Below, piece after piece: positions 32,430 to 45,078 of a stretch of 64,000 bases of DNA. Positions within the stretch are counted from its first letter, which is position 1, and each line of letters opens with the position of its first letter. The translations under genes and the position numbers were made by a program. The notes beneath the pieces were generated by a model, which searched no databases, was not told the origin of the DNA, and saw nothing but the letters and a program-made list of their open reading frames with translations. Origin of the DNA: an uncultured Alphaproteobacteria bacterium. GTDB lineage: Bacteria; Pseudomonadota; Alphaproteobacteria; Rs-D84. The stretch lies in NCBI GenBank assembly GCA_944389385.1, contig CALXMC010000001.1, positions 1 to 64,000 of the forward strand. The letters are read 5' to 3'.

Positions 32430-34409
32430 ATGAATGAACAGAACACACACACATACGACGCATCTGACATCCAGGTACTTGAAGGCCTGGAACCGGTTCG
32501 CCTGCGGCCTGGGATGTACATTGGCGGCACAGATGAAAAGGCCTGGCATCATTTACCGGTCGAGATTTTAGACAACTCGATTGACGAGGCTGTTGCCGGA
32601 TTCGCAAAAAAAATCACAGTAAATTTAATCGACGCCAAAACAATCGAGATTACGGACGACGGCCGCGGAATTCCCGTTGATGAACATCCAAAATTCCCCG
32701 GCAAATCGGCATTGGAAGTGATTTTAACCACGCTGCATTCAGGCGGAAAATTTAATAACAACGTGTATAAAACCAGTGGCGGTCTGCACGGCGTCGGCAG
32801 TTCTGTTGTAAATGCGCTGTCGTCTGAAATGATTGTAACAATTTCGCGCGATGGATACGAATGGCGTCAAACATTTTCACGCGGCAAACCAACCAGTTCA
32901 ATGACCCGCGGGAACGCCACAAAAAACCACGGCACAAAAATCAGATTCACACTTGATGACGAAATATTCGGTGCAAACGCGGTTTTCAAACCCGTCAAGA
33001 TTTATCGTATGGCGCGCGCAAAATCATTCTTGTCGCGCGGCGTGCGTGTTAATTGGATTTGCAACCCGGAATTATTAACCGAAGACATGAATATCCCCGC
33101 CCAAACGGAATTTTATTATCCCAACGGCGTGGCAGATTTCTTGGACGAAAAAACACGCGATAAACCGCGCATTTTGCCAAAGATTTTCAGTGGCACCGTT
33201 GATTTTCCTGATGATTCGGGTCGCGTGGAATGGGCATTAACTTTTTTAACGGATGAAAACGGCGCGGCATCTGACGATGGTTTTTTCGCATCATATTGCA
33301 ACACAATTGCAACAATTGACGGCGGCACACATGAATCAGGATTCAAATCTGCCATCACCCGCGGTATAAAATCATACGGGGACAAGGTTAATAATAAATC
33401 CGCCGCATCGATTATCAGCGACGACGTATTCGATTCGGTTGCGGCGATTGTATCTGTATTTTATAAAACCCCACAATTTTTGGGTCAAACCAAGGAAAAA
33501 CTGTCGAACCCGGAAATCGCACGCTTTACCGAAAACGCACTGCGTGACCCGTGGGAGATTTTTTTGGCATCCGATCCCAAAACCGCAAACGCAGTACTGG
33601 ATTTTGTGGTAAATTTGGCGAACGCCCGTATTAAAACGAAACAAGTCAAAGAAATCGCCCGCAAAACGCCGACCAAACGTATTCGTATGCCGGCCAAATT
33701 AGCTGATTGTTCGAAACACGGCGTGGATGGGACTGAATTATTTATAGTCGAAGGTGAATCCGCCGGTGGCACCGCGAAACAGGCACGTGACCGCGCGACC
33801 CAGGCAATCATGCCTCTGCGGGGCAAGGTATTAAACGTTATATCCAATTCTGACGAACGATTCAGCGCAAACAAAGAATTGAACGAGTTAATTGACATCA
33901 TCGGCGCGGGCACCGCCAAGGATTGGGACGAGAGTAAACTGCGATACGAAAAAATCATCGTCATGACCGATGCCGACGTTGATGGCAGCCACATTGCATC
34001 GCTGTTAATGGCATTTTTTTACCAGGTTATGCCCCAGTTGATTTATGGTGGCCACCTGTATTTATCGTGTCCCCCGCTGTATAAATTAACATGCGGAACC
34101 GAATCGATATATGTTGATACAGACGAAGAATTGGAAAATCTGAAAAACACGAAATATAAAAATAAAAAAATCGAAATTTCGCGGTTCAAGGGCTTGGGCG
34201 AAATGATGCCGAACCAGTTAAAGGAAACAACCATGTCGCCCAAAACGCGCCGCTTGATACGCGTTGATTTACCCCCACGCACGGACGATGGCGCCGAAGA
34301 TACGGAAAAAACGCGTACAATTGTATCGGAACTGATGGGTAAAAAACCGGAATTTCGATTCAAATTTATTACTGAACACGCACAATTCGTCAAAGATTTA
34401 TTCGTATAA
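32430..34409 (+). CDS. parE: DNA topoisomerase IV subunit B
   Basis: 659 aa. The ATPase domain (ILDNSIDEAVAG, DDGRGIPVD, GGLHGVGSSVVNALS), the TOPRIM domain (VEGESAGGTAKQARDR, MTDADVDGSHI) and the C-terminal FKGLGEMMPNQL are in order. The beginning YDASDIQVLEGLEPVR with GTDEKAWHH is the ParE type seen in alphaproteobacteria, not GyrB. parC is not in the window. It decatenates chromosomes. No ribosome binding site is visible. Confidence 0.93.
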   Translation: MNEQNTHTYDASDIQVLEGLEPVRLRPGMYIGGTDEKAWHHLPVEILDNSIDEAVAGFAKKITVNLIDAKTIEITDDGRGIPVDEHPKFPGKSALEVILTTLHSGGKFNNNVYKTSGGLHGVGSSVVNALSSEMIVTISRDGYEWRQTFSRGKPTSSMTRGNATKNHGTKIRFTLDDEIFGANAVFKPVKIYRMARAKSFLSRGVRVNWICNPELLTEDMNIPAQTEFYYPNGVADFLDEKTRDKPRILPKIFSGTVDFPDDSGRVEWALTFLTDENGAASDDGFFASYCNTIATIDGGTHESGFKSAITRGIKSYGDKVNNKSAASIISDDVFDSVAAIVSVFYKTPQFLGQTKEKLSNPEIARFTENALRDPWEIFLASDPKTANAVLDFVVNLANARIKTKQVKEIARKTPTKRIRMPAKLADCSKHGVDGTELFIVEGESAGGTAKQARDRATQAIMPLRGKVLNVISNSDERFSANKELNELIDIIGAGTAKDWDESKLRYEKIIVMTDADVDGSHIASLLMAFFYQVMPQLIYGGHLYLSCPPLYKLTCGTESIYVDTDEELENLKNTKYKNKKIEISRFKGLGEMMPNQLKETTMSPKTRRLIRVDLPPRTDDGAEDTEKTRTIVSELMGKKPEFRFKFITEHAQFVKDLFV

Positions 34410-34431: not shown

Positions 34432-34459
34432 TTGACAACTTGATATTTTGTACTATATT
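34432..34459 (+). promoter_or_regulatory. Strong sigma70-like promoter
   Basis: TTGACA (34432-34437), 16 bp, TATATT (34454-34459). The segment TTTTGTACTATATTA matches the promoter at 21654-21682. The message would begin near 34466, 18 bp before the ATG at 34484, which is preceded by AAAGGAAATGAT. Confidence 0.7.
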
Positions 34460-34483
34460 ACACTCCGGCATAAAGGAAATGAT

Positions 34484-34963
34484 ATGAATCAAAAACAAAA
34501 TCAGCCTGTGGCATCACGCCCCAGCAAAAAACGTAAAAATACTTATGTAATCAGATATTCTGCCTTTGCAGATCCGCATTGGTTTGCAGATTGTGCAATA
34601 ACCCCATTATGTATAACCGAAAAGAATGGCGAAAAAATCGCATCAAATGGCGGATGGGAAAAATGCGGTGCATTTCCAAATCCTGGTCCAACAACAATGT
34701 TCGCGCAATACAACCAATTTTCGCATATAATGACTGCGGACGAACTGAAATTGGCATCAACAATCGTCGAATATTTGGACAAGGAAACGGGCGAACCGAT
34801 TGCATATTTATATCCAAATTGCGATATAGTATCCGAACAATATGATACATTACCCAAACTGATGGCACGTTTGAATCATGCGACCCGCCAAGATTTGATG
34901 CGCCAACACAGCAAACGTTCCAACATGTGGAATATTATCAAGGTTCGCGGCCGCACAAAATAA
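34484..34963 (+). CDS. Uncharacterised protein (159 aa)
   Basis: Not recognised. It starts with a basic, Gln-rich tail (MNQKQNQPVASRPSKKRKN) followed by a mixed domain with ADPHWFADCAITPLCITEKN and YLDKETGEPIAYLYPNCDI, and ends in basic residues. There is no signal peptide. It has its own strong promoter and terminator, so it is a separate gene. The basic ends suggest nucleic-acid or membrane binding, which is only a guess. Confidence 0.6.
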   Translation: MNQKQNQPVASRPSKKRKNTYVIRYSAFADPHWFADCAITPLCITEKNGEKIASNGGWEKCGAFPNPGPTTMFAQYNQFSHIMTADELKLASTIVEYLDKETGEPIAYLYPNCDIVSEQYDTLPKLMARLNHATRQDLMRQHSKRSNMWNIIKVRGRTK

Positions 34964-34981
34964 TATTGTACAAACAAAAAA

Positions 34982-35006
34982 ACACGCCGATAACGGCGTG
35001 TTTTTT
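34982..35006. terminator. Terminator, outer flank of left inverted arm
   Basis: CACGCCG-ATAA-CGGCGTG hairpin with an A run and a T run. It serves the 159-aa gene on plus and the Cys-rich gene on minus. It ends where the 211-bp inverted repeat begins. Confidence 0.85.
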
Positions 35007-35213
35007 GTTTTCCCCATCTGATTATTGGATACCGACGCGGAACTGGTCGCCCCATCCGGCAACAACTTGGCCACCGATGGTACATTGCATATCTTCAAAT
35101 CCATCCGATACTTGGCTTTTCTTGACTACACTGCTGGTAATTAAACCACCGGCTGTACCCAATACCACGCCCGCAATGGAATCTGATAATAAACGGGATG
35201 TGTTAAATTTTCC
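35003..35213. repeat. 211-bp inverted repeat, left arm
   Basis: The reverse complement of 36567-36777, identical by eye over the full 211 bp. It holds the last 63 codons of the gene at 35022 and its 3' end. The outer boundary lies at a terminator, the inner one inside the gene after the codons for EEGKF. Confidence 0.9.
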
Positions 35214-36401
35214 TTCTTCATTACGCCACTTGTTCACACGCAGCCCGTCACGTATGGTATTCAGCGTCGCAACTGCCTGATCTATCCTTTGATTTGCTTG
35301 ATTTTGTTCCGCCTGGGTATTAACACCACTGATGGCAATATTTATCTGGTTTATCATGCTGTTAAACACAATTTCACTGGGATCTCCATCGCAGTATTCA
35401 ATGACCTGGTTTATTTGGGCGACAATCGATGTGTTGGTCGCATATTGCACCTGTAAAGTTAACAGATTGTTTATCTGGGTCTGGTCACATTCATAGTCTG
35501 GATCGGATGATTGAACCTGTGTAACAGACGGCTCAATCGGCTCGCACTGTAATGTAGACGGGTTGAACACATGTGTACTGGTGTTTGGACATTCGCACAC
35601 AAGGGTAGCTTTATTCCAAGTCGCAACACTGGACGGTACATAACAACATGTAACACACTGGCTTTTTGTACTTCCACTTAATCCGCCACAACGATTACGA
35701 ATACATCTTTCTGTATTGCTTAATTCAGGGCTTGACACAGTTTCATCAACGGTTTCGGTGGGTGCCTCAACGGGTTTCTCGGGCTCTTCAACAGGTTCCG
35801 GCGTCGGTTGAGTTGGTTGAGGTTGAGTTGGTTGCGTTGGTTGAGTTGGTTGCGATACACTTACACAATATTTACCATTAACTGCACGGTATCCATCCAA
35901 ACATCTTCTGTATCTGCATAAATAATCATACCTACCTGTCTGAGTTATACTAACCGATGTCGCCCCTTTGGCTGTTTGACCCTGTCTGATTTCAGATAAC
36001 AGAGAATTTTCTATATAACCGTCCATCTGGTTCAGAGGTGAATCACCACATACACCCAATTTTGAATCCTGCATTTGTGTCCAAGTATCATTTGGTCCAA
36101 AAGTATCTGTACATTGGAATGCAATGTGCTGTCCACCATCATTAGCAATCACAACCGTATCATTATAATTACATTGGCTGTTTGCACCACCTGTGTCACA
36201 CATATAACATAATTGACTTGTAAAACGTCCATCATCATTATTATTTGGACCACCTGTCACACCATCCTGACTCAACATTTCACGCGTATTAAATTTAGAA
36301 GCATCACATATAATCGGCGTACAACTTCCTGCTGCCGATGCAAAACTCGGCATAACGACCATTCCGAAACAACAAATCACAAAAGCCAAAATTTTTCTCA
36401 T
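35022..36401 (-). CDS. Secreted Cys-rich protein with Pro/Gln/Thr linker (459 aa)
   Basis: A signal peptide (about 1-23) precedes a Cys-rich N-terminal part (CTPIICDASKF, YMCDTGG, CRYRRCLDGYRAVNGKYC). A linker of PTQPTQPTQPQP and Glu/Pro repeats (about 185-220), a second Cys-rich region (CIRNRCGGLSGSTKSQCVTCC) and a helical region follow. The C-terminal 63 residues have a glycine-zipper-like helix (AGVVLGTAGGLITSS) and end QFRVGIQ. That end is duplicated in inverted orientation at 36567. It is probably secreted or surface bound; the family is not recognised. GGGGGGAAT precedes the ATG. Confidence 0.7.
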   Translation of the reverse strand: MRKILAFVICCFGMVVMPSFASAAGSCTPIICDASKFNTREMLSQDGVTGGPNNNDDGRFTSQLCYMCDTGGANSQCNYNDTVVIANDGGQHIAFQCTDTFGPNDTWTQMQDSKLGVCGDSPLNQMDGYIENSLLSEIRQGQTAKGATSVSITQTGRYDYLCRYRRCLDGYRAVNGKYCVSVSQPTQPTQPTQPQPTQPTPEPVEEPEKPVEAPTETVDETVSSPELSNTERCIRNRCGGLSGSTKSQCVTCCYVPSSVATWNKATLVCECPNTSTHVFNPSTLQCEPIEPSVTQVQSSDPDYECDQTQINNLLTLQVQYATNTSIVAQINQVIEYCDGDPSEIVFNSMINQINIAISGVNTQAEQNQANQRIDQAVATLNTIRDGLRVNKWRNEEGKFNTSRLLSDSIAGVVLGTAGGLITSSVVKKSQVSDGFEDMQCTIGGQVVAGWGDQFRVGIQ

Positions 36402-36418
36402 ATTCCCCCCAAAAATTA

Positions 36419-36548
36419 TGCCGAATTAAAAGATTGGTTTTATTCCGACGCTATAAAACATACTCTTTATACTGCATTTTATCACATTTTCGCACCAAAT
36501 CCAACAGCAAATTATGCCGAGAATTAAAACCAACTTTTTAATTCGGCA
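36419..36548. repeat. Short inverted repeat pair inside the cassette
   Basis: ATGCCGAATTAAAA at 36419-36432 recurs as its reverse complement TTTTAATTCGGCAT at 36535-36548; adjacent TTGGTTTTA / TAAAACCAA extends the match to about 25 of 28 bp. The right copy is itself a 36-nt hairpin (36513-36548). The pair encloses about 80 bp without a gene. It could be MITE ends or recombination sites. Confidence 0.6.
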
Positions 36549-36563
36549 TGAACGGGGGATGAT

Positions 36564-36758
36564 ATGGGAAAATTTAACACATCCCGTTTATTATCAGATT
36601 CCATTGCGGGCGTGGTATTGGGTACAGCCGGTGGTTTAATTACCAGCAGTGTAGTCAAGAAAAGCCAAGTATCGGATGGATTTGAAGATATGCAATGTAC
36701 CATCGGTGGCCAAGTTGTTGCCGGATGGGGCGACCAGTTCCGCGTCGGTATCCAATAA
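36564..36758 (+). CDS. Duplicated C-terminal domain as a 64-aa open frame
   Basis: Encodes MGKFNTSRLLSDSIAG... to QFRVGIQ, identical to the last 63 residues of the gene at 35022 but on the opposite strand. ATG at 36564 is preceded by GGGGGATGAT, a fair ribosome binding site, and a terminator follows at 36779. Without a signal peptide it is either a cytoplasmic fragment, a silent tail, or what remains after a cassette inversion. Confidence 0.45.
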   Translation: MGKFNTSRLLSDSIAGVVLGTAGGLITSSVVKKSQVSDGFEDMQCTIGGQVVAGWGDQFRVGIQ

Positions 36759-36777
36759 TCAGATGGGGAAAACAAAA
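36567..36777. repeat. 211-bp inverted repeat, right arm
   Basis: Identical to the reverse complement of 35003-35213. The distance between the arms is 1353 bp, holding the rest of the Cys-rich gene and its upstream region. Identity over the whole length including non-coding edge means the duplication is recent or kept uniform by recombination. Confidence 0.9.
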
Positions 36778-36778
36778 G

Positions 36779-36803
36779 TGCCGCGATTTTGCGGCATATT
36801 TTT
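36779..36803 (+). terminator. Terminator, outer flank of right inverted arm
   Basis: TGCCGC-GATTTT-GCGGCA hairpin followed by a T run. It is placed at the mirror position of the one at 34982, so a gene reading out of either arm would be terminated. Confidence 0.75.
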
Positions 36804-39587: not shown

Positions 39588-40478
39588 TTATTTTTTGGCC
39601 TGTTCCAGATTGGCCTGTTCCAAATACACAAAATTATACTCGTTGCACGCAGCGGGTTTTTCCTGACCCGCGGGATAAGATTCACATGCGCTTTTTAATT
39701 CAGCCAACGCAGTCATAAAACGATTAAATTCTGTGGGTTCTTGGATTTTCAGCGCGCGCAACTGAGCCAACAACTGCCGATCGCCCGACAAACCGGCCTG
39801 TCCTTCTACTTTCCCACCGATTAACTCGTTACCAAACCACTCCATAATACCAACGCCCAGTCCCGCGCCACCAACCGCGCCGCCAACAGTTGCCCATGTA
39901 CGGCCTGATTTTTTGGCATCCAAAATACGTTGACGCAACATATCTTCATCAACCCAATTGCCACATGTAATATTTTGCCCCATCGGGAAATACTTGGCCT
40001 GGACATCAGATGTATTTACGCGCGAATCGCTGGAACTGACCTCGACCAATACAAAGCAGACATTATTTTCAGGATTATTAACATCTTCAACCATGGACGT
40101 ATAATCAGATGTATTACTGTACCGCGACGCCCAAACAAAAGTATTACCAAATCCGATATTGTTATTCAAACAAGCCTGCTTTTGATGTTCAATTTGTTCC
40201 AGAAATTCATCACGATCATCATCCGGCGCATCTTCATCATCATCCACAGTGTCCCCAACCTGTTCCGCAGGGATTCGCACACTGGATTTATCTATTACTT
40301 CATCGTCTGATTGTGCATTGGCATTTGCCATGGCTGTAATTTGATTTGTCGACGCAGTCGCCCTGGGCGCATATCCAGCCCGACTGACCGTCCCAGGCCG
40401 CACGCCCCCCGTTTGGGTCGCGGCAACACCCGGCGCACACAACATAACAATCGCGATAAAAAACAGTAATTTTTTCAT
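39588..40478 (-). CDS. Secreted protein with glycine-zipper segment (296 aa)
   Basis: A signal peptide (MKKLLFFIAIVMLCAPGVAA) precedes a low-complexity region, an acidic stretch (TVDDDEDAPDDDRDEF) and a central part with cysteines (KQACLNN, NNVCFVLVEV, NITCGNW). A Gly/Ala-rich helix TVGGAVGGAGLGVGIMEWFG near residue 200 resembles the glycine helix in the Cys-rich protein at 35022. The C-terminus is Gln/Ala-rich with two cysteines. The ATG at 40478 is favoured by GGG six bases upstream. Not recognised. Confidence 0.65.
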   Translation of the reverse strand: MKKLLFFIAIVMLCAPGVAATQTGGVRPGTVSRAGYAPRATASTNQITAMANANAQSDDEVIDKSSVRIPAEQVGDTVDDDEDAPDDDRDEFLEQIEHQKQACLNNNIGFGNTFVWASRYSNTSDYTSMVEDVNNPENNVCFVLVEVSSSDSRVNTSDVQAKYFPMGQNITCGNWVDEDMLRQRILDAKKSGRTWATVGGAVGGAGLGVGIMEWFGNELIGGKVEGQAGLSGDRQLLAQLRALKIQEPTEFNRFMTALAELKSACESYPAGQEKPAACNEYNFVYLEQANLEQAKK

Positions 40479-40545
40479 TCTCATCCCTTGCCTTGATTAC
40501 GTTCAATTATATCACAAATTGCATAAAAAATAAAGAATAAATAAC

Positions 40546-41589: not shown

Positions 41590-41800
41590 TCAGCCCGTAA
41601 CGGGAACGCACCAATGCCCACCGCCCCCGGGCCCCGCGCAAACATAGTTTGCGTGGGTGGATCCCGGGCCCCTCGCAAACATAGTTTGCGTGGGTGGATT
41701 CCGGGCGGGGGGGGTGTCGCGCAAAGCGCGACGGGGGGTGGGGAATTGTCACCCGAAGCCCAGGCAAAGGGGAAAACACAAGTAACAAGTAACTAAAAAC
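41590..41800. repeat. Dispersed repeat copy
   Basis: Gene-free. The unit GCAAACATAGTTTGCGTGGGTGG occurs twice (about 41638-41660 and 41675-41697), each next to a CCCGGGCC block, and the tail CACCCGAAGCCC...AAGTAACAAGTAACT matches copies at 1-1250 and 45.0 kb. Inner palindromes AAACATAGTTT and TCGCGCAAAGCGCGA occupy the place of GCGACGTGTCGC in the other copies. Confidence 0.75.
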
Positions 41801-41825
41801 CCCGCCATTCGGCGGGATTTTTCAG
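41797..41825 (-). terminator. Terminator of the autotransporter gene
   Basis: CCCGCC-ATTC-GGCGGG hairpin with A and T runs, just after the stop codon. Confidence 0.85.
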
Positions 41826-44860: not shown

Positions 44861-44986
44861 CTATCCGAATCGGTAAATACGCACAAAACTGACATCGCTT
44901 GTGCCTGTTGTGCCACTGCCACCGGCGCCACCATCCATATTAACGGGCAATGTAAATTTGGCCTGAAACGCGCCACCCCCACCGCC
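44861..44986 (-). pseudogene. Remnant 3' end of a gene
   Basis: An open frame of about 40 codons without start reads GGAFQAKFTLPVNMDGGAGG and SGTTGTSDVSFVRIYRFG, then a TAG stop. It is cut off upstream by the dispersed repeat at 44970-45045. The Gly-rich protein-like composition suggests a surface protein C-terminus. Confidence 0.35.
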
Positions 44987-45048
44987 GGGGGGGGGTATCA
45001 CCCGAAGCCTTGGCGAAGGGTGACACAAGTTACGAGTAACCAGTAACT
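44970..45048. repeat. Dispersed repeat, short copy
   Basis: CCACCCCCACCGCCGGGGGGGG followed by CACCCGAAGCCTTGGCGAAGGGTG and ACACAAGTTACGAGTAACCAG, the same order of parts as in 1-1250 and at 41.6 kb. It truncates the remnant reading frame at 44861. Confidence 0.7.
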
Positions 45049-45049
45049 A

Positions 45050-45076
45050 AAAAACCCCGCCAATCGGCGGGATTTT
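45050..45076 (-). terminator. Terminator of the secretin gene
   Basis: CCCGCC-AATC-GGCGGG hairpin with A and T runs. Confidence 0.85.
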
Positions 45077-45078
45077 TC

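Follow-up and report, generated by a model that had tools for sequence, protein, structure and literature searches.

A candidate invertible promoter between twin secreted-protein genes with a shared tail, and a putative Mpi-type multi-locus switch in small alphaproteobacterial genomes

Invertible promoters of the type considered here are best known from Bacteroides. In Bacteroides fragilis, Mpi controls invertible promoters at the capsule and other loci. Mpi inverts 13 regions there (PMC4747536). The candidate system described below resembles it in comprising a serine recombinase of putative Mpi type, several dispersed short promoter segments with inverted sites, and the probable control of surface products. 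It differs from it in its host, an alphaproteobacterium with a 1-Mb genome, in its targets, which are secreted Cys-rich proteins, in its long quasi-palindromic 13-6-13 sites, and in the use of one promoter for two divergent genes with a shared tail. The Hin/Gin (Din) systems exhibit 26-bp hix-like sites, a Fis-bound enhancer, and an invertase gene within or beside the segment. Common to Salmonella Hin, phage Mu Gin and the present case are a small serine invertase, here a candidate one, inverted sites and exchange at a central dinucleotide, and we take the site core AAACC-NN found here to resemble hix/gix. In contrast to Hin and Gin, the candidate recombinase here is nearer to Mpi and no invertase gene lies inside the segment.

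In Lactobacillus acidophilus, slpA and slpB are variable genes with conserved ends. According to the passage of PMC7858073 that cites Boot 1996, they are swapped by DNA inversion, one being active and the other silent. Two surface-protein genes would likewise be alternated by DNA inversion in the present case, although the genes move to a fixed promoter in L. acidophilus, whereas the promoter would move between fixed genes here. The sap genes of Campylobacter fetus are divergent, with a conserved and a variable part, and their rearrangement is RecA-dependent; the conserved part corresponds to the start of the protein there and to its end here. A single sap promoter transcribes only the adjoining sap gene (PMC3887049), and one promoter would similarly serve the adjoining gene here. 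With regard to the host, the reported metabolism of Candidatus Enterousia, an uncultured gut genus, suggests dependence on a partner (PMC12306168). No report of phase variation or invertible promoters in this genus, which is only our guess for the window, was found in the literature searched.

The locus lies between gyrB and dnaA in the window, i.e. the whole stretch of 64,000 nucleotides that was analysed. Its features are the following.

32430..34409, plus strand: gyrB/parE-type topoisomerase gene, fixed left neighbour of the locus
34448..34963, plus strand: gene of a fast-evolving 171-aa protein between gyrB and the locus, a neighbour outside the switch
34977..35006, minus strand: terminator hairpin outside arm 1
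35003..35213, minus strand: arm 1 of the 211-bp inverted repeat (100%), comprising the 63-codon conserved tail, the stop and the 3' leader up to the terminator; belongs to the gyrB-facing gene
35022..36401, minus strand: gene R, coding for a 459-aa secreted protein with a signal-peptide-like start, a Cys-rich variable head, a Pro-rich linker, a helical region and the conserved 63-residue tail
36419..36449, minus strand: R-side recombination-site-like element, core AAAACC-AA-TCTTTT, with the outer half TTTTAATTCGGCA intact and the inner half degenerate
36450..36514, minus strand: putative promoter segment between the sites, facing gene R in this assembly, with TTGGATTTGG at 36495-36504 and TGTGATAAAAT at 36476-36486 on the minus strand
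36515..36548, plus strand: L-side recombination-site-like element, inverted with respect to the R-side element, core AAAACC-AA-CTTTTT
36564..36758, plus strand: gene L remnant, a 64-aa ORF with its own ribosome-binding leader and ATG and the tail directly after, without signal peptide or head
36567..36575, plus strand: GGAAAATTT at the putative gene L deletion junction; the same word is found in gene R at 35205-35213
36567..36777, plus strand: arm 2, the same tail on the opposite strand, on the dnaA side, beginning exactly at the putative deletion junction
36778..36797, both strands: bidirectional terminator hairpin between arm 2 and dnaA
36804..38099, minus strand: dnaA homologue, fixed right neighbour of the locus

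The locus was compared with 156 genomes of the same genus, among which G000 is the genome of the window. Homologues of gene R occupy the same dnaA-gyrB spot in most genomes read. Searches of its protein against Pfam, NCBIfam and PDB gave nothing usable, and an AlphaFold model of the 459 residues was uninformative (pLDDT 33.7). The secreted proteins are probably surface-exposed. The 171-aa protein exhibits about 27-76% identity where GyrB keeps 87-99%, and its gene is absent or duplicated in some relatives. A tRNA-associated insertion was ruled out, as no tRNA is present at the locus.

A repeat search of the window returned 35003-35213 and 36567-36777 as an inverted repeat of 211 nt, 100% complementary, with a spacing of 1353 nt, in agreement with an earlier note on this DNA that had described the arms as exact reverse complements. 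ORF translation confirmed that the same 63 C-terminal residues are encoded by both arms, and each arm was correctly said to run outward into its own terminator, namely the hairpins on the minus strand (34977-35006) and on both strands (36778-36797). The 993-kb genome (11 contigs) contains no other copy of the arms, the only resemblance being a 44-bp match of 80% on contig 2. Chance is far too weak to give a perfect inverted repeat of 211 bp. The same note had seen no invertase gene nearby, and the window indeed contains none; genes for Mpi-like serine recombinases are located on two other contigs. The note had missed a second, inner inverted repeat (36418-36442 and 36525-36549, 92%), which surrounds the only conserved promoter.

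The candidate switch is the 130-bp segment at 36419-36548, where one conserved promoter is flanked by two inverted, quasi-palindromic sites of 31-34 bp, as is usual for invertons. A TATGATAAAAT-like motif was found upstream of the start, on the coding strand, in 56 of the 62 single-gene loci, with a shuffle rate of 2.4%. Based on this conservation, the motif is probably a working promoter; a sigma-70 scan did not flag the promoter of the segment. Intergenic DNA was readable for eight gene pairs, seven of which exhibit a single promoter motif flanked by two copies of the site. The eighth, in G100, has two promoter motifs and no site pair. The motif faces R, on the gyrB side, in G000, G003, G140 and G141, and L, on the dnaA side, in G163, G151 and G052.

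In these seven pairs, each 5' leader carries a quasi-palindrome of 31-34 bp that is inverted relative to its partner. Both sites are perfect in G141, where they correspond to the ideal form TGCCGAATTAAAA-CCAACC-TTTTAATTCGGCA and its inverse. The central dinucleotide is matched within each pair, being AA in G000, G141 and G151, AC in G003, G163 and G052, and TT in G140. Matched centres that vary between species are expected of a serine recombinase with a 2-bp crossover, and shared ancestry of the two sites is another possible contributor to the match. The two contigs of G141 have an overlap of exactly 77 bp, the first of them stopping at the inner edge of the site. Had the sample contained both orientations, a de Bruijn assembler using k = 77 would have branched at this point, and the overlap is therefore suggestive of inversion in G141. 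At the dnaA locus, the window and G141 have the same promoter orientation. The inner half of the R-side site is degenerate in the window, and a similarly degenerate half-site is present in a second pair, on contig C5, that did invert. The promoter segment of the window probably still flips. About ten single-gene loci exhibit one partnerless site-like palindrome in the 5' leader, and the site element may therefore have another role too.

A scan of the window genome for the site pattern returned six places, against 0 for the reversed-pattern control. These comprise the pair of the window, another inverted pair at C5:114231-114347, and two places that stand alone. The sites at C5 enclose a promoter-like segment, C5:114263-114315, located before the gene of an 1830-aa secreted Cys-rich protein. 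This gene (C5:114354-119843, L218) has an HNH-type gene and a serine recombinase gene beside it. When G141 is compared with G000 at C5, the flanks are collinear, and the segment between the sites is a reverse complement of 97% identity. The half-sites are swapped between the two genomes at the central CC-AA-CC, which places the breakpoints at the centre of the site. The C5 promoter faces the 1830-aa protein gene in G000 and faces away from it in G141. Both orientations therefore occur in nature, at C5 between G000 and G141 and, between species, at the dnaA locus. A third candidate pair, C2:139962/140047, was dropped because the second element lies inside a coding region and the promoter lies outside the pair.

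A degenerate form of the site pattern matches 50 of the 156 genomes, the control giving one match in all. Dispersed segments with the same site comprise two pairs in G000 and six each in G021 and G052. The six segments of G021 are paralogous and share a TTGACA-type promoter; brought into the same orientation, they are 80-90% alike. All are next to secreted Cys-rich genes: two point towards the neighbouring gene and four point away from it, while the readable segments of G052 face away. These orientations follow the pattern of a putative phase-variable promoter set.

With regard to the enzyme, a 198-aa serine recombinase is encoded at C5:111518-112111, 2.1 kb from the C5 site pair, in G000 and about 3.3 kb from it in G141. 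It comprises a Resolvase domain and resembles solved chains of gamma-delta resolvase and DNA invertases. Against NCBIfam NF009949, 'master DNA invertase Mpi', it scores 235.7 bits (E 3.8e-70), below the curated cut-off of 272. A second Mpi-like gene of the window genome, at C2:107020, is 49% identical. Close Mpi-like relatives are present in 117 of the 156 genomes and in 13 of the 13 paired genomes described below (p = 0.02 ignoring kinship), and they are also common in genomes without detected sites. The same site scan found no sites beside most other Mpi-like genes, and recombinase and sites are therefore linked by proximity only in G000 and G141; a similar link is suggested in G130 and G011. 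The Mpi-like protein is probably the acting enzyme. A phage-integrase-type recombinase was rejected as a marker, as it is found in 156 of the 156 genomes and does not discriminate.

The tail is encoded in 147 of the 156 genomes, and most dnaA-gyrB regions read contain a single gene reading away from dnaA. Divergent inverted tails were found at this spot in G000, G003, G140, G151, G163 and G100, with arms that are 93-100% identical, while in G052 such an inverted tail pair lies across gyrB from this spot. The nearest relative, G141 (DnaA 90%, GyrB 99%), has its pair divided between two contigs, which were the only matches in a scan of the named genomes. Contigs stop inside the arm in G155, G164, G130, G136 and G011, and their ends are exact inverted copies over 46, 99, 77, 77 and 141 bp, respectively. 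Such paired contig ends are expected when an assembler meets an inverted repeat; G011 was counted as paired though its second contig has no link to gyrB. A search for the same arms in relatives, which the earlier note had recommended, thus shows or implies the paired layout in 12 other genomes of the genus, or 13 with the window. On a DnaA tree with 11 of these 13 genomes, the paired state needs 7 changes, of which at least 5 are forced by well-supported branches, and pairing was therefore gained or lost several times.

Other arrangements of tail genes were also observed. In G010 (L038, 1155-1531 and 15037-15412, dnaA-forward), a 377-bp inverted repeat of 99.7% surrounds a 13.5-kb block of dnaA, tail gene and gyrB, which could invert as a whole. 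Two tail genes at the dnaA-gyrB spot are in tandem direct, not inverted, orientation in L132 (G072) and L137 (G156). G013 (L045), G114 (L156) and G048 (L157) have, at another locus, oppositely oriented tail genes separated by about 17 kb.

The stub aligns over its leader and start with the complete gene L of G141 (GGGGGATGATATGGGAAAATTT); from there the window sequence passes directly to GGAAAATTTAACACATC of the tail, where the tail word is GGAAAGTTT in G141. A deletion between the GGAAAATTT repeats probably removed the signal peptide and head of gene L, and the inner edge of the 211-bp repeat coincides with the deletion junction. As the stub is a deletion form of gene L of G141, the gene pair predates the split from G141. 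At eight positions, both window arms, which are identical to each other, differ from both G141 arms. In a tail tree, the L tail and the R tail fall together in 7 of the 7 genomes with both on one contig. The tails of G000 and G141 form one group of four, and those of most species are clearly distinct. The within-genome grouping and the shared arm differences therefore indicate that the tails evolve in concert, presumably by conversion or repeated exchange between the arms.

The heads, i.e. the region before the tail, are highly variable and form about 17 groups plus singletons at a limit of 38% identity over 100 residues. Sister species may carry unrelated heads: the head of the window is like those of G143, G140, G040 and G003 and unlike that of G141. 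For the full-length L heads, the closest match is the R gene of another genome in 6 of 7 cases. Because R genes far outnumber L genes, these matches show only that L is not a separate old lineage. One head (L127, 2847-3641) exhibits a weak OmpA-like similarity (E 0.013), and another (L174, 2488-4305) comprises collagen-like GXX repeats; both are joined to the same tail.

The earlier note had proposed an invertible expression cassette, in which the whole 1353-bp core inverts via homologous recombination between the 211-bp arms. An invertible element does fit the locus, but it appears to be the inner 130-bp promoter segment and not the core. Since the two arms have the same tail, each followed by a terminator of its own, and the promoter is located within the core and moves together with its gene, inversion of the core would be neutral: an identical protein, again followed by a terminator, is encoded in either state, and neither expression nor product would change. 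Moreover, in many relatives the gene occurs in a single fixed orientation without a second arm. We consider it unlikely that the core is the switch, even though the arms are long, perfect and inverted, the homogenised tails imply that arm recombination does occur on an evolutionary time scale, and a head type located on the dnaA side (L) in G003 sits on the gyrB side (R) in G163, with 58% identity. The outer arms are a side effect of having twin genes arranged in this way, but exchange between them preserves the similarity of the tails and may also allow heads to move from one side to the other.

A recent inverted duplication, also suggested in that note, is correct insofar as the two genes are inverted homologues; the pair, however, is older than the split from G141, its tails having been kept alike by conversion. 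A plain inverted duplication followed by gene conversion and decay of one copy, with the inner palindromes serving as transcription-factor operators or 5'-leader hairpins and nothing flipping, could account for the stub, the homogenised tails and the lone leader palindromes of single-gene loci. This is improbable given that the C5 segment of G141 is exactly inverted relative to that of G000, the exchange lying at the centre of the sites, that promoter direction varies between species at the dnaA locus, and that the central dinucleotides are matched in pairs yet species-variable. It also fits poorly with the orientation of close site pairs, which, among the matches listed, comprise 24 inverted and 0 direct pairs, 79-104 bp apart from start to start. 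As for a misassembled repeat end, which the earlier note had named as a reason to abandon its proposal, contigs in other genomes often end at these arms; the stub side, however, has its own leader and 3' flank that match the dnaA-side gene of G141, and the paired layout is assembled through in at least six other genomes, so that an artefact is scarcely credible.

We therefore favour, with good confidence, a system in which invertible promoters of the Mpi type control secreted Cys-rich proteins at several loci and which offers an A/B choice in relatives and a full-length/stub choice in the window. Divergent secreted-protein genes with different heads and a shared tail would have one promoter between them, enclosed by two inverted quasi-palindromic sites. 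A Mpi-like serine recombinase, acting in trans from another contig, would invert the segment of about 130 bp by exchange at the site centre, and transcription of either gene R or gene L would depend on the orientation of the promoter. Since gene L would have lost its signal peptide and head in the window species, through the deletion between GGAAAATTT repeats, the choice there would now be between ON (459-aa protein) and OFF (64-aa stub). The 211-bp arms would represent the tail-coding ends that both genes have in common, their identity being maintained by recombination of one arm with the other. A broader reading, which we put forward only tentatively and which may well prove incorrect, is a combinatorial surface-protein system of gut alphaproteobacteria with reduced genomes, in which Mpi-like invertases choose the transcribed head-bearing gene at many loci, and the constant inverted tails serve as recombination anchors that exchange new heads between positions and species.

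The locus points to programmed phase variation in alphaproteobacterial genomes of about 1 Mb. With the site consensus, the entire regulon can be searched for, and gut metagenome reads that already exist could reveal which surface proteins switch, and in which hosts.

Two further observations concern other parts of the window. A 298-aa secreted Gly-rich protein is encoded at 39588-40484, and its relatives are found just downstream of, or overlapping, tail genes elsewhere (L044, L045, L053). Short dispersed direct repeats at 1-1255, 41594-41823 and 44984-45078 are common to distant parts of the window.
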